DNA of 34,822 nucleotides, taken from positions 1 through 34,822 of the IMG/VR virus record IMGVR_UViG_3300048672_000287, one strand, 5' to 3'. Below, piece by piece: positions 1 through 34,170 of the stretch. The translations under genes and the position numbers were made by a program. The number at the start of each line of letters is the position of its first letter. Position 1 is the stretch's first letter. The stretch comes from a virus. A model generated the notes under the pieces. It was not told where the DNA came from. It ran no database searches and worked only from the letters and a program-made list of their open reading frames with translations.

Positions 1-92
1 CACCACCTTCTATTAATATTAACAGAACTTCCAATATAAATTCTATTTGGTTTTATAATTGATTGTATTTTATATATACCAGATATTTTCAT
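1..92 (-). CDS. GIY-YIG endonuclease, N-terminal part only
   Basis: An ATG at 92 opens a frame that runs off the window edge after about 30 residues. It begins with GIYKI at residues 5-9, and YIGSS follows at 19-23, which together form the GIY-YIG signature. The spacing and the following N-x-x-R-R match the complete GIY-YIG protein at 22098-22574 (GIYGI then YIGSS). Known members are homing endonucleases that nick or cut DNA and spread their own gene. It lies 12 nt past the caspase-like gene, with no promoter between them. Family assignment is firm; full length and activity cannot be judged. Confidence 0.8.
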   Translation of the reverse strand, partial: MKISGIYKIQSIIKPNRIYIGSSVNINRRW

Positions 93-104
93 TTATTAAA
101 ATAA

Positions 105-941
105 TTAAACAGGTATCTTTTGTAGTAATTCATTTATTTCATCATCCGTTACAAATGTATCATAAAGAAAAATCGCTTCGTCATAACCATCTTTCTCATC
201 ACCATGTTTATCATAAACCTGTGTGCCATGAGAAGAGTTAGCTATTATAAGTGTCGGGCCATCAAAGACTATTCTATCAAGAAGATAGTCTGGGCCTTCA
301 ATATATGGGGCTTGATCAAATGATGAACTAGGTAGATACTTCTGTATCTCTACTCCCCATTGCCTATATGTCATACCTGGTCTTAATGCTTTCATAGCAT
401 AGTAAGTTCCAGCGCCATGATATTCACCATTTATATATGCATCTGCAGATGTCTGATTTTCTTGACACATTGCAAATGTAAGCCATTTGATAGGGACTTC
501 CTTACCCATGGCAAATTTCTTATTTACTTTTTTAATTCTCTTACGGACTTGTGGATTAGGGAAGAACCTGTTCTTTGTTGGATGTGGGTTCTTACTTAAG
601 AATTTTGTTATAGTACCACTAAAACAACTATCTGCAAATACTAATACAACTGCATCAGAAGGAAGTAATGCGATAGATTTCTCTACCTCTGTCTTATAGC
701 AACTCTTTGTTACTTCAGAATTGGTAAATCTACTAACTTCAAACTCCTTAGGGTATAATGTATTTAATCTTTCTACCATATCTCTACCATCATTCAAACA
801 ACCATTAAGGTCATTTGCTGTGCCGGGATAATCATTAATCGCAAAGTGTAATATCTTCTTATCTAGTTTCATAGGTTCGGGTATTGGTGTCGGATCAGGA
901 TCAGGCTTCGTAAGCCAATCATAAATTTTTCTAAAGCACAT
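105..941 (-). CDS. Caspase-like (peptidase C14) protein with permuted catalytic blocks
   Basis: The protein has 278 residues. A basic N-terminus and a Pro/Asp linker (13-23) precede a caspase-hemoglobinase fold. The opening block (30-60, AINDYPG then a DLNGCLND-like helix) is typical. The cysteine block VFADSCFSG follows at 101-109 with Cys106. The usual domain end (EGPDYLLDRIVF) is at 215-226. The histidine block SHGTQ, with His238, then GDEKDGYDEA and TDDEINELL, appears only after this, at 229-278. In the family the His block lies between the opening block and the Cys block, so order is permuted while both catalytic residues are kept. Known relatives are Cys-His peptidases cutting after Arg/Lys or Asp; the target here is unknown. 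I chose the ATG at 941 because the upstream 38-residue gene stops at 943; an in-frame ATG at 971 exists. Inactivity or domain-swapped dimerisation are possible. Confidence 0.85.
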   Translation of the reverse strand: MCFRKIYDWLTKPDPDPTPIPEPMKLDKKILHFAINDYPGTANDLNGCLNDGRDMVERLNTLYPKEFEVSRFTNSEVTKSCYKTEVEKSIALLPSDAVVLVFADSCFSGTITKFLSKNPHPTKNRFFPNPQVRKRIKKVNKKFAMGKEVPIKWLTFAMCQENQTSADAYINGEYHGAGTYYAMKALRPGMTYRQWGVEIQKYLPSSSFDQAPYIEGPDYLLDRIVFDGPTLIIANSSHGTQVYDKHGDEKDGYDEAIFLYDTFVTDDEINELLQKIPV

Positions 942-942
942 A

Positions 943-1059
943 TTATTTAGTTTTAAATAGTTTGCCAGCATTTATTGCCTGTTGATGTAAGAACTTGCGT
1001 ATAGCCCAGAAAGCTTTCCATACGCTTATAAAATTTATTTTAATTGGTGGTAGATTCAT
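943..1059 (-). CDS. Small basic protein, 38 residues
   Basis: The ATG at 1059 overlaps the stop of the DUF5675 gene (1056-1058), and the stop at 943-945 sits one base before the caspase-like start. The product is basic (about eight Lys/Arg) with an aromatic centre (SVWKAFWAIRKFL) that could form an amphipathic helix. I recognise no family. The tight packing between two real genes is the main support. The helix could associate with a membrane, which would suit a lysis operon, but that is inference. Confidence 0.6.
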   Translation of the reverse strand: MNLPPIKINFISVWKAFWAIRKFLHQQAINAGKLFKTK

Positions 1060-1466
1060 ATTATTACTAATGTAAAACTGTTTGGTAATATCTCTAATAA
1101 TTTAGTAAGAGTGTTGGTACTTTCAACAACATCTTTATAGCCATCTTTATTTATATCTCCAAATCTACTTCCTACTAATATGCAGCCCTGTGTATCAACC
1201 TTAGATCCTGTAGCATAATTTCCCTTATGAATTAATATTGCCGATCTATTAGGGACATCATGTACCATAAAACACTTACCTTTAGTAGGAGAATATATCT
1301 TAGTAACATTATACTTACCTTCAGGTATGCACGACACATTTTTTTCGTTTCTTAAGAATGGAAGTTCTAAGGAAACAAACTCAAACAGTTTCTGAGCCCC
1401 ATCTAATACTAGACAGAGCCCAGGAGTCTGTTTGTCATCATATGATCTACTCAGTAGTAGCTTCAT
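1056..1466 (-). CDS. DUF5675 family protein, probable lysis-associated enzyme
   Basis: The protein has 136 residues. It shows the DUF5675 pattern: an N-terminal strand region with LELPFLRNEK, a CIPEGKYNV turn, then LIHKGNY and DTQGCILVGSRFGD near residues 79-104. The His and Cys in IHxGN...GCILVG are the family's conserved polar positions and recall the His/Cys pair of L,D-transpeptidase-like folds. DUF5675 genes are often found in phage lysis regions, and a cell-wall role is generally suspected rather than proven. It overlaps the 52-residue gene upstream by 20 nt and the 38-residue gene downstream by 4 nt, so translation is probably coupled. Family call is good; enzyme activity is uncertain. 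Confidence 0.75.
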   Translation of the reverse strand: MKLLLSRSYDDKQTPGLCLVLDGAQKLFEFVSLELPFLRNEKNVSCIPEGKYNVTKIYSPTKGKCFMVHDVPNRSAILIHKGNYATGSKVDTQGCILVGSRFGDINKDGYKDVVESTNTLTKLLEILPNSFTLVII

Positions 1467-9731: not shown

Positions 9732-10231
9732 TAGTCATTAAGGCGAGCAAAAATATCAAACACATAATATATTGCAGAACTATTACCAACAACTGCGTTA
9801 GACTCTATAGACGTAACTAAAAAATCTAACCAGTTAGCATAATCCTGATCTTTATTATATACATCATCAATATAAGCAGCTTTAGATGCTATGAAACTAT
9901 CTCTAGTATACATAGCATTATAATAAACTACTTCTTCACTAGTGTATGTTTCTCCAGTATTAAATGTTAGGATTATCTCATAAATAGAATCTGGAATAGT
10001 ATCTGTCACTGCGAATCCTAGGTCTGTATTTTTAACTTCTATAGAAAACCCAGATGCTAATACCCCACCAGACAATGTAACCATAGTTAATGTAACACCA
10101 GAATATTTAGATTCTATAGTTAGAGTATATGTAGCCATGCCTGGAAATGGTGATCCAGTAGATGCATCCTGTACAAGGATAGACTTACCTTGGTCATAAT
10201 CAGTAGTGCCGAACGCTAAGCTAAATGCCAT
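9731..10231 (-). CDS. Virion-associated protein, 166 residues, unknown
   Basis: A beta-rich N-terminal half (1-110; TYTLTIESKYSG, IYEIILTFNTGETY) resembles a small Ig-like domain. A helical C-terminal half (SFIASKAAYIDDVYNKDQDYANWLDFLVTSIESNA) follows. I recognise no named family. It lies between a coiled-coil membrane protein and the FISUMP/DUF1566 fibre and is probably a fibre adaptor. No signal peptide. Confidence 0.6.
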   Translation of the reverse strand: MAFSLAFGTTDYDQGKSILVQDASTGSPFPGMATYTLTIESKYSGVTLTMVTLSGGVLASGFSIEVKNTDLGFAVTDTIPDSIYEIILTFNTGETYTSEEVVYYNAMYTRDSFIASKAAYIDDVYNKDQDYANWLDFLVTSIESNAVVGNSSAIYYVFDIFARLND

Positions 10232-10243
10232 TATTTTATATTT

Positions 10244-10756
10244 TTAATTTGTTAATAATTTAATTAATCCAGGTAATGTATTTTCTGCTAATACAATAGA
10301 TACTAATATTACTAATACGATAATAGAACCTATAAGCAACTTAGGATGTCTTACAAAGAATAAACCATCCACTAATTGATCACTAAGACTTTTCTGAGCA
10401 TTATTTATCTCTTTTATTTCCTCTGTCCATTTCTCATCAAGCTTCCTATGCCTAACATCTATTAGATCTATTGTAGTATCAATTCTTTTATCCAACTTTT
10501 CAAACTTTATTATATTAGGACACTCAGTCCCCCTTGTATCAATGATATGTTTACCTTCAGCAATAGCCTTGTCAGTTTTTTCTTCTAATTTAACTAGATC
10601 TTCTTCTAAATGATTTACTCTAGAGTTTGTTAATTGAGTGTCTTTCTTAATAGAATCTAAACTATCCTTAACATTCATAAAATGAGCATTCATTAATATA
10701 GTGAGATCAGTAAATCTCTGAGCAACCATATCCCTATAATCTTGACTATTTGGCAT
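10244..10756 (-). CDS. Coiled-coil protein with C-terminal membrane anchor, 170 residues
   Basis: Residues 20-130 are highly charged with heptad-like Leu/Ile spacing (DSLDSIKKDT, VNHLEEDLVKLEEKTDKAI), predicting a coiled coil. A single hydrophobic helix (about 140-160, LLIGSIIVLVILVSIVLA) lies near the C-terminus. This layout is seen in phage lysis accessories such as XhlA-like proteins. It directly follows the holin-like gene by 3 nt. A lysis role is inferred from topology and position; I cannot assign a family. Confidence 0.6.
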   Translation of the reverse strand: MPNSQDYRDMVAQRFTDLTILMNAHFMNVKDSLDSIKKDTQLTNSRVNHLEEDLVKLEEKTDKAIAEGKHIIDTRGTECPNIIKFEKLDKRIDTTIDLIDVRHRKLDEKWTEEIKEINNAQKSLSDQLVDGLFFVRHPKLLIGSIIVLVILVSIVLAENTLPGLIKLLTN

Positions 10757-22097: not shown

Positions 22098-22574
22098 TTA
22101 CATGAAATTATATTGCTTTAAAAACTTCATTGTAACCATTTTCTCCTTATTTTTAATTGTATTTTTTTGTTTATTTCTTGCTTCTTCGCATCCAACTCTA
22201 AAATATTTTCCTTCTTTCCATGCTTTTCTAACAGCATTCCCAATCTTGTTTTTTGCTCCAATAGAAAATTTTTTACCAAGCATTGGACTTCCCACATATA
22301 TAGAACTATTAAAATATGGGAAATCATGATCTAAAAATGATTGTTCTATTTCTAATAACTTATCTTCATCGCATTCGTATAAAACAACAAAGTTTAAATC
22401 ATCTATTCCATATTTATCATAATGCCTTTGTAATTTTATAGATTGATGTTTATTTTTTTTTAACAAACCTTTATGCGCTGAAAATCTTTTACTAATATTT
22501 CTAGAACTTCCGATGTAATATCTAGAAGGAATAGATTTAGATTCTATACCATATATTCCACATATAGTTTTCAT
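22098..22574 (-). CDS. GIY-YIG homing endonuclease, 158 residues
   Basis: GIYGI (6-10) and YYIGSSRNISKRFSAH (18-33) form the nuclease core, with the conserved Arg, a Tyr in HYDKYG, and Glu in LLEIEQSFLDHD (about 72-83). A C-terminal basic segment (SIGAKNKIGNAVRKAWKEGK...RNKQKNTIKNKEK) resembles NUMOD3-type DNA-binding elements. It has no promoter of its own and lies between the exonuclease gene and the scaffold promoter. It is closest in style to the fragment at 1-92. Confidence 0.85.
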   Translation of the reverse strand: MKTICGIYGIESKSIPSRYYIGSSRNISKRFSAHKGLLKKNKHQSIKLQRHYDKYGIDDLNFVVLYECDEDKLLEIEQSFLDHDFPYFNSSIYVGSPMLGKKFSIGAKNKIGNAVRKAWKEGKYFRVGCEEARNKQKNTIKNKEKMVTMKFLKQYNFM

Positions 22575-32051: not shown

Positions 32052-32128
32052 AAATTAACCTGCCAGATGATCGCTGCTGCTCCGGCAATGCTTAGAAAAT
32101 ATCCTATGTATTTTAATATCAGTTTCAT
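31990..32128 (-). repeat. Copy B of dispersed repeat (one-helix peptide plus holin-like start)
   Basis: Pairs with copy A at 11070-11166. The 42 extra nucleotides here encode residues 13-26 of the one-helix peptide. Both copies begin at or within a few bases of a spike stop codon. Confidence 0.8.
32048..32128 (-). CDS. Intact one-helix membrane peptide, 26 residues
   Basis: A short basic start (MKLILKY) leads into a hydrophobic helix (about 8-24, IGYFLSIAGAAAIIWQV). ATGA overlaps join it to the spike upstream (32125-32128) and to the holin-like remnant downstream (32048-32051). Its counterpart at 11128-11166 is truncated. Small membrane peptides before holins can regulate lysis timing; that is inference here. 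Confidence 0.58.
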   Translation of the reverse strand: MKLILKYIGYFLSIAGAAAIIWQVNL

Positions 32129-34170
32129 AATACTATATCCCCAACTAAATCAGCCTGGTCAACATCTATAGTTCCATCAGGCTTAGGACAGACAGATATT
32201 GAACAAGGAATATTGATACCTTTTGCATAATCATAAACTGTTTGTACCGCTGATATGGTTCTTAATGCTGCCGGAGTTGCATTACAAAACCACTCATTAT
32301 TAGAACGTGATGTTAAAACATACTCTTTTATGCAAGGATATTCTATATTATTTATTCTTTGTTTTTTTGTCCACCAGTCATTAGCTGAACCAACTCCAAT
32401 ACTTGACATACAAACTTCTTCTGACGCTGTTGCATCAGCAGCACCAAACTTAGGATCATTCCTGTCTGTATCATACCAAATATTTAATATTACACCAACA
32501 CTGGGATTGACTGACTTTATTGCATAATATAAATCCCTTACATAATCTGTTGGATAAAAGCCATCCGTCCCGTCAAGCCATATAGCAAACGGATTTAAAG
32601 CAGCCAATTCCTTCAATCTGTCTATCCTAAACTGGTGATTTGCTGCCCACTGGTAATCTGAATCTGTATAACAATCAATAGGGTCTTTATCAAAATAATA
32701 GTTTCTATTGCCAGCAACATGAAAATATAATATAGGCTTGATGCCGACTGCATTAAATTCTTCAATAAAGTCAGGAACAATGTTTTTATATCCGGTAGTA
32801 ATACCAACATCATATTTAGTGTATGCCGGACATAAATAACCACCGCCCATATCTACCTGGGTACCTTTCCATATTGCTGTCTTGTGGTCATATAAACTAA
32901 ATCCCTGTATATGAACAACACTTAGAATTGCATAATCAATTTTCCCGTAACTGGCAGCAAGTGCAGCCCACGCAGCAACATCAATATTAGCTACATTAAA
33001 CAAGGCAGGATTACCGACCTCAACCGGAGACTTCCATGTAAATTCATTGCCTGTAAAGGTTTCCATGTTAAAGTGCATAAACCACCCTAACTTAAAATTC
33101 TTAAACGTGCTTTGGAAAGTGCTTTCAGTTACTGACGGCAGATATTTATATTTAGGTAAATTTTTATAAACAGGAGAAACTGACGTTCCGTTGTGACTGC
33201 CTATTTCATCATTGAGATTATTTTTAAATTTATTGGCTGAAATTAGGTTTGAATAAAATGATAATTCAGTTAAATCATTTTCTTCTGTCATATTTTGGTA
33301 TTCTGTCACTTCCGCTGCTGACAATGCCTTATCAGCCACTAACAATAAATTAATATCGCTATGTGCATAATTTGCAGTATATACCTCAGAATGACCAATA
33401 ACAAAATGATCCCTGTTATTCATGTTTACATAAGTGCCGCTATTTTGTGACATATTGTAAGATAACTCATTACCGTCAAGATATATCTTCATTCCGGTTG
33501 CAGACTTATTTCCCGAATATGTAAAAGCAAACTTATATAAATTACCCGGGACAACAACTCCAGGATTCGCAGACTTATATAACTGTATACTTCTTGCATC
33601 ATTGCCATATATACTGAAATCAGCGGTATTTGCAGATGTATTTAGCTGAATGTAATAACTCATGCCGGAAGAATTACCCCTACATATTAACATGCCCGCA
33701 GCATCTTTCAGGTTTACTTTTGCCGTTGCAAGTATGGTAAAAGGAAGATCATTACCTGACCCATCATTGAAATAATAATCATTTGAAGCATCAGCCAAGG
33801 TAATTGAAGAATTAACTGAACTAATCACCACCATCTCTGGCGTAACAGCTACTATACTTGAGTAATCTGTATATTTTGCACCCTTATATGCCCTTACCCT
33901 GTACTGATAAATACCAAGTGCCGGAATTATATCAGCACAAATAGGTATTTCAGTTACAGCTACCTCGGTGAAATCAACTCCGTTTGTACTTCTTTCCCAA
34001 CAATATCCATCTATTGTTTTTGTGTATGTATCACAATATAAATCTATTCTTGTATCAGAATATGTAATCGCCGTCATTCCTGACGGTGACCCTACATTCC
34101 ACCCCTGACCACCGGCAATGCCTATGCCTTCACGTAAATTAAAAATGCTGTTTCTTATCGCTGTGCTCAT
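32125..34170 (-). CDS. Spike with LamG-like and GH29 alpha-L-fucosidase-like domains, 681 residues
   Basis: The anchor REGIGIAGGQG (13-23) is shared with the 428-residue spike. An FN3-type domain (about 30-112; YQYRVRAYKGAKYTDYS) and a LamG/concanavalin-like sandwich (about 117-295) follow. From about 345 the sequence follows GH29: LGWFMHFN (like FGMFIHWG), WAALAASYGKIDYAILSV with a His in place of part of KHHDGF (VVHIQGFSLYD), RLKELAALNPFAIWLDG with Asp533 as the expected nucleophile, EEVCMSSIG, and VCPKPDGTID near 656-665 (like NIGPxxDGxI). GH29 enzymes release alpha-L-fucose. A fucosylated capsule or glycoprotein is the likely target; activity is unproven. Confidence 0.75.
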   Translation of the reverse strand: MSTAIRNSIFNLREGIGIAGGQGWNVGSPSGMTAITYSDTRIDLYCDTYTKTIDGYCWERSTNGVDFTEVAVTEIPICADIIPALGIYQYRVRAYKGAKYTDYSSIVAVTPEMVVISSVNSSITLADASNDYYFNDGSGNDLPFTILATAKVNLKDAAGMLICRGNSSGMSYYIQLNTSANTADFSIYGNDARSIQLYKSANPGVVVPGNLYKFAFTYSGNKSATGMKIYLDGNELSYNMSQNSGTYVNMNNRDHFVIGHSEVYTANYAHSDINLLLVADKALSAAEVTEYQNMTEENDLTELSFYSNLISANKFKNNLNDEIGSHNGTSVSPVYKNLPKYKYLPSVTESTFQSTFKNFKLGWFMHFNMETFTGNEFTWKSPVEVGNPALFNVANIDVAAWAALAASYGKIDYAILSVVHIQGFSLYDHKTAIWKGTQVDMGGGYLCPAYTKYDVGITTGYKNIVPDFIEEFNAVGIKPILYFHVAGNRNYYFDKDPIDCYTDSDYQWAANHQFRIDRLKELAALNPFAIWLDGTDGFYPTDYVRDLYYAIKSVNPSVGVILNIWYDTDRNDPKFGAADATASEEVCMSSIGVGSANDWWTKKQRINNIEYPCIKEYVLTSRSNNEWFCNATPAALRTISAVQTVYDYAKGINIPCSISVCPKPDGTIDVDQADLVGDIVL

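Follow-up and report, generated by a model that had tools for sequence, protein, structure and literature searches.

A caspase-like gene of a crAss-like phage encodes its catalytic cysteine ahead of its catalytic histidine, an order opposite to that of standard caspases. The sequences of its relatives and the predicted fold make it likely that the protein is a natural, non-circular (segment) permutation of the caspase/metacaspase fold, and probably an active endopeptidase late in infection. A permuted and probably active enzyme, as proposed in an earlier, sequence-only reading of this DNA, remains the best interpretation.

The permuted gene

The window, that is, the whole stretch of DNA analysed here, is a complete IMG/VR record of 34,822 bases, linear. 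For its major capsid protein the match is to the Crassvirus capsid family (5.8e-110), and for its terminase to phrog_6681. The minus-strand frame from 105 to 971 is open throughout and would encode 288 residues; a start at 941 (MCFRK) gives 278. Since this start fits the MC[FW]KK start of relatives, the 278-residue version is adopted. The unusual N-terminus Met-Cys-(Phe/Trp)-Lys-Lys (window 921–941) is common to the permuted and the near standard phage caspases. The gene and its parts are as follows.

105–941, minus strand: permuted caspase gene, 278 residues, stop codon at 105–107, block order N-C-H; starting instead from the in-frame ATG at 971 would yield 288 residues.
666–860, minus strand: N block, residues 28–92, comprising strand b1, a helix with the S1-pocket motif GCxND (Cys48, Asp51), and b2; profile E 7.6e-20, predicted strands 28–34 and 68–73, GCxND invariant in 12 of 12 members.
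264–662, minus strand: Cys/p10 block, residues 94–226, comprising b4 with DSC, the basic L4 loop, and p10 with QTSADA and the end LLDRIVF; profile E 6.7e-38, strand 98–103, Asp104 and Cys106 (nt 624–626) invariant in 12 of 12.
252–263, minus strand: join DGPT, residues 227–230, connecting the p10 end to the relocated strand b3.
114–257, minus strand: relocated His block, residues 229–276, comprising b3 with NSSHG, the acidic loop GDEKDGYDE, and the helix DDEINELLQKI; profile E 2.8e-20, strand 230–236, helix 266–273, His238 (nt 228–230) invariant in 12 of 12.

The order was read with three block profiles built from standard-order phage homologues. Profile N covers b1–b2 and GCxND, profile H covers b3 and its catalytic His together with the acidic loop and the helix, and profile C covers b4, its catalytic Cys, and p10. 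Searches and alignments used the protein piece by piece. By these profiles the window protein runs N, Cys/p10, His, in contrast to the standard N, His, Cys/p10; Cys106 in FADSCFSG precedes His238 in NSSHGTQ (278-residue numbering). The protein matches Pfam PF00656 with E 2.6e-9, better than the cut-off. Its pieces fall out of order on PDB 3bij, query 237–286 aligning to chain residues 73–122 and query 108–214 to 127–252 (288-residue numbering). The acidic loop and the pocket residues are retained. The sequence-only reading had placed the His block behind the Cys/p10 block and had taken the catalytic and acidic pocket residues to be kept; the profiles, the misordered 3bij pieces, a sister phage with the standard order, and invariance across all 12 members bear out both points.

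Distribution among phages

That reading had also suggested searching phage proteins for this arrangement of blocks. When viral contigs were searched with profiles, 13 further ones showed it (those of L159, L167, L169, L170 and L171, which encode the same protein, L172, L174, L177, L178, L202, L203, L204, and L213). L213 is cut by its contig end and still shows the His block coming after the p10 end. Among 127 distinct full-length caspases, 12 are N-C-H, the window counted, and 115 are N-H-C. Successive profile rounds on viral contigs returned 38 relatives, then 31, then just the 13 known permuted contigs; the permuted set is close to exhaustion in the searched viral collection.

Searching viral contigs with the single sequence gave no match, nor did a protein search among contigs that encode related capsid proteins, because the relatives are divergent or their fragments stop short of the locus; profiles were needed. 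INPHARED phages yielded just one remote match. Block profiles detected no N-C-H order among 80 prokaryote loci, and a search of 395 Bacteroidota genomes at E 1e-9 gave no junction-type match, every match starting at profile position 16 or later and thus covering the His block only.

The phage backgrounds differ. The window and the contig of L200 have a crAss-type terminase, the contigs of L193 and L197 have Terminase_6N, and L204 has another portal and head set. As judged from these genomes and from the substitution patterns described below, the permuted version is maintained by selection in at least 12 phage genomes of several backgrounds.

A single origin

The 12 permuted proteins form one clade in trees of the concatenated blocks (FastTree 0.991; IQ-TREE SH-aLRT 99.6, UFBoot 100). 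Their sister group is a set of standard-order phage caspases, L029, L065, and L066 (99.6/100), and the clade is nested among standard-order phage caspases. Support for the permuted clade is 0.977 when the His block is left out and 0.803 for a tree of just the C block; a tree of just the short N block lacks the clade. By this phylogeny the permuted order is derived, not ancestral, and has one origin.

The sister phage that carries L029 (IMG/VR sample 3300004282) allows a close comparison. Its contigs 000002 and 000005 overlap exactly by 60 bases at their ends and are probably one genome. Its capsid protein is 96% identical to that of the window, and a standard-order caspase (L029:5408–6319), with SGHG ahead of DSCFSG, occupies the same slot, beside a DUF5675 gene that shares 83% identity with its window counterpart. 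The caspase DNA of the window and of L029 aligns just in short separate pieces (window 159–230 and 423–461).

The other permuted proteins have diverged until they are ~40–56% identical to that of the window. On this evidence the permutation event is old, shared by the entire clade, and predates that divergence. The sequence-only reading had seen a trace of the event in the word TGATG, common to both junctions as after a tandem duplication followed by deletion. The word is present at both junctions, but chance readily accounts for a shared word of this length (P ~0.41): when 24-base stretches of the gene are paired at random, 41% of the pairs have a word at least as long in common. A recent duplication/deletion marked by TGATG was rejected, the longest word common to both junctions being at chance in the window; for the near-identical pair L203 and L204 the longest shared junction word has P 0.08–0.09. 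With an event this old and clade-wide, the locus is not one that preserves its trace.

Conservation and selection

All 12 full-length permuted members retain both catalytic residues, the Asp that precedes Ser-Cys, and GCxND, and in 13 of 13 a join of exactly four residues links p10 to b3. The clade also has signatures of its own beside the dyad, where positions have changed jointly. Three positions before the His stands Asn in 12 of 12 permuted proteins, where 97 of 115 standard forms have Tyr or Phe and none has Asn. Just before DSC the permuted proteins have Ala, Pro, or Met (12 of 12), and the standard forms mostly Leu, Met, Ser, or Phe. These changes may reflect re-packing of neighbouring strands after the permutation, and activity or specificity may have been changed by them.

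Non-synonymous change is far below synonymous change in each block in nearly all pairs listed, and the relocated His block is not relaxed. The pair L169/L172 is an example, with pN 0.18–0.23 and pS 0.69–0.84; synonymous sites are near saturation in most pairs, so that pN/pS figures are qualitative. The substitution pattern thus shows the permuted gene to be under purifying selection.

In one subgroup (L169, L170, L172, L174, and L177) the acidic loop after the catalytic His is shortened, with DG missing before DE. The shorter loop may alter calcium dependence.

Gene neighbourhood

Two genes flank the caspase gene in the window.

1–92, minus strand: beginning of a gene for a GIY-YIG homing endonuclease, truncated where the contig ends (30 residues match Pfam GIY-YIG with E 0.0011); a separate neighbour of the caspase.
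1056–1466, minus strand: DUF5675 gene, the upstream neighbour (Pfam PF18925, E 1.1e-24).

Within ~45 bases downstream of permuted genes lies a small, holin-like protein with at least one predicted hydrophobic segment, usually two, and the next protein has, in most permuted loci, a signal-like N-terminus; in L197 and L213 a GIY-YIG gene intervenes before the holin-like one. The window's caspase gene is followed by the endonuclease start, and the contig then ends, before any holin-like gene. Upstream of permuted genes are DUF5675 (window, L193, L202), Amidase_2 (L195, below the cut-off), or an endolysin family (L194). The downstream arrangement, with its holin-like gene, recurs at the standard-order loci L029, L067, L158, L160, and L161. 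Because the neighbourhoods match, the caspase, in either form, seems to belong to a lysis-type cassette in which standard and permuted versions look interchangeable. The most likely function is that of a late Arg/Lys-specific protease that would process a protein of the phage or its host no later than lysis.

Other genes recur nearby. Free-standing GIY-YIG genes lie after or near the caspase in several contigs (window 1–92 and 22098–22574; L197:6790–7707; L213:332–946; L195:9891–10718; L200:7692–8450 and 9840–10562). A protein that by eye looks like an ECF-type sigma factor is encoded at L203:1406–1948 and L204:3733–4305, upstream of the permuted caspase and separated from it by a few genes. 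Window positions 32125–34170 encode a 681-residue protein that weakly resembles alpha-L-fucosidase (Pfam PF01120, E 2e-6).

Predicted fold and a proposed folding path

A first AlphaFold2 run, on nine permuted sequences, scored pLDDT 69.7 and pTM 0.73. A second run reached pLDDT 84.0 and pTM 0.81, with all five models at 81–84; its alignment held more members and, as extra rows, fragments of standard-order homologues, which may bias it towards the known fold. The junction residues 221–230 have a mean pLDDT of 97, and strand 98–103 stops just before the catalytic Cys. Foldseek's top PDB matches to the model are 3bij, metacaspase-9, metacaspase-4, and MALT1, and its top viral matches are giant-virus caspases. 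TM-scores are just ~0.45–0.52 in alignments that preserve chain order; low values would be expected for a model with one strand out of chain order, and by themselves they are no proof of where the strand lies.

The caspase sheet has the topology 2up-1up-3up-4up-5up-6down, with His and Cys at the ends of b3 and b4 (PMC4357240). We propose that one ancestral event in phages took b3, with the catalytic His, the acidic loop, and the helix, out of its position between b2 and b4 and placed it at the C-terminus. As b6 is the one strand that points down, it finishes on the edge where b3 begins, two strands or ~14 Å away at the usual strand spacing. The four-residue join would cross that edge of the sheet, and b3 would re-enter its usual place in its own chain. 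Four residues and the strand ends would be just long enough, which would explain the fixed length of the join. His238 would then stand opposite Cys106, and the S1 pocket (Cys48, Asp51, Asp104, Ser236) would be rebuilt. From the published topology (PMC4357240) we infer insertion of b3 within the same chain, and hence folding as a monomer.

The acidic residues of the S1 pocket suggest a P1 preference for Arg/Lys, and the conserved residues argue for catalytic activity of the permuted enzyme. The product is most likely an active cysteine endopeptidase that cuts after Lys/Arg, is made alongside the lysis genes, and acts late.

Alternative explanations

The two alternatives that deserve most attention concern the protein itself. 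In a domain-swapped dimer the C-terminal b3 and His of each chain would complete the active site of the partner, an idea encouraged by the dimerization of known caspases through b6 (PMC4357240) and by the position of the relocated segment, C-terminal and directly after b6. Yet the join is just four residues in 13 of 13 members, and an antiparallel b6–b6' dimer would, by the same topology, put the partner's b3 start on the opposite edge, further away, so that a longer connection would be needed; type I metacaspases, moreover, act as monomers (PMC4357240). We consider swapping unlikely. As an obligate state, which the sequence-only reading had entertained, it is pointed to by no finding, and a four-residue join in every member fits a crossing within the chain; nor does any finding point to that reading's other suggestion, an escape from self-activation. 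It is comparably improbable that the protein is an inactive pseudo-protease retained as a binding protein or scaffold. The substitutions beside the catalytic residues, rare or absent in standard forms, and the shortened acidic loop of L169, L170, L172, L174, and L177 would suit such a role, but some loss of catalytic and S1-pocket residues would then be expected, and these are invariant in 12 of 12 members despite identities of ~40–56% to the window protein.

The other two alternatives concern the locus, and we give them almost no credence. An assembly chimera, or a gene recently broken in one phage, is brought to mind by the position of the gene at the contig end, 104 bases from position 1. 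The order, the join, and the signature residues are repeated, however, in 13 other contigs, which exclude the assembly error that had been named as the main way to overturn the permutation, and the frame is open with silent-site bias. Insertion of a homing endonuclease or intron, with the Cys part lying beyond and joined by splicing, has in its favour that the GIY-YIG gene begins shortly past the stop codon, where the Cys block of a standard gene would come. In L197 and L213, where the GIY-YIG gene is placed alike, it is followed by the holin-like gene without a second Cys block; most permuted loci have no endonuclease there, and there is no Rfam intron match. A permuted enzyme that folds within its own chain accordingly remains the preferred reading.

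Relation to known caspase-like proteins

The nearest relatives, the standard-order phage caspases L029, L065, and L066, share the sequence family and its residues, and L029 also the slot between DUF5675 and a holin-like gene; they differ in having the His block before the Cys block and Tyr/Phe, not Asn, three positions before the His. The family C14 bacterial caspase-like proteins and metacaspases (3bij, metacaspase-4 and -9) share the blocks, the dyad, and the predicted fold, but have His and then Cys, with b3 between b2 and b4. Membership of clan CD, family C14, is indicated by caspase-domain similarity (PF00656 and the block profiles) and by HG and DSC motifs in 12 of 12 members. The confident AlphaFold2 model shows the strands and has caspase matches, and may form the six-stranded sheet of this clan, in which b3 ends with the His and b4 with the Cys. 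The order of the residues, one assignment criterion for clan CD (PMC4357240), is the exception, Cys106 coming before His238.

Two other re-wired caspases invite comparison. Algal type III metacaspases are likewise a natural rearrangement of caspase segments, but there the entire p10 has moved ahead of an intact p20 (PMC5756287); in the phage form the N block comes first and p20 itself is split. The circularly permuted caspase-2 (PMC7760212) is man-made. A circular permutation joins the old termini and opens new ones, whereas in the natural phage form b1–b2 stay first, the N block is still N-terminal, and just the His block has moved, through a cut inside p20. Searches of open-access papers turned up neither a naturally permuted p20 nor an account of this family of phages. 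With somewhat less assurance than for the permutation as such, we favor the view that these phages carry a natural lineage of active caspase-fold peptidases in which Cys precedes His through transposition of one central strand.

Such a lineage would have several consequences. If the L4 loop were cleaved, Cys and His would end up on separate chains, which would imply a new activation control. The reversed order itself breaks the residue-order criterion of clan CD, so that order-dependent profiles detect just pieces of these proteins. An interior strand with a catalytic residue, reattached at the chain end and kept by selection, is a natural test of how far a fold tolerates re-wiring. Caspase-type proteases, standard and permuted, would be placed in phage lysis-type cassettes, where their job could be addressed by comparing both forms.

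Two standard-order phage caspases (L074:1651–3612 and L223:4279–6462) contain an in-frame intein (Intein_splicing and HNH), inserted right after the catalytic His-Gly (SGHG|CF[AS]GDTR ... VHN|SQV). By the position of the insertion, these two proteases should be dead until the intein splices out.
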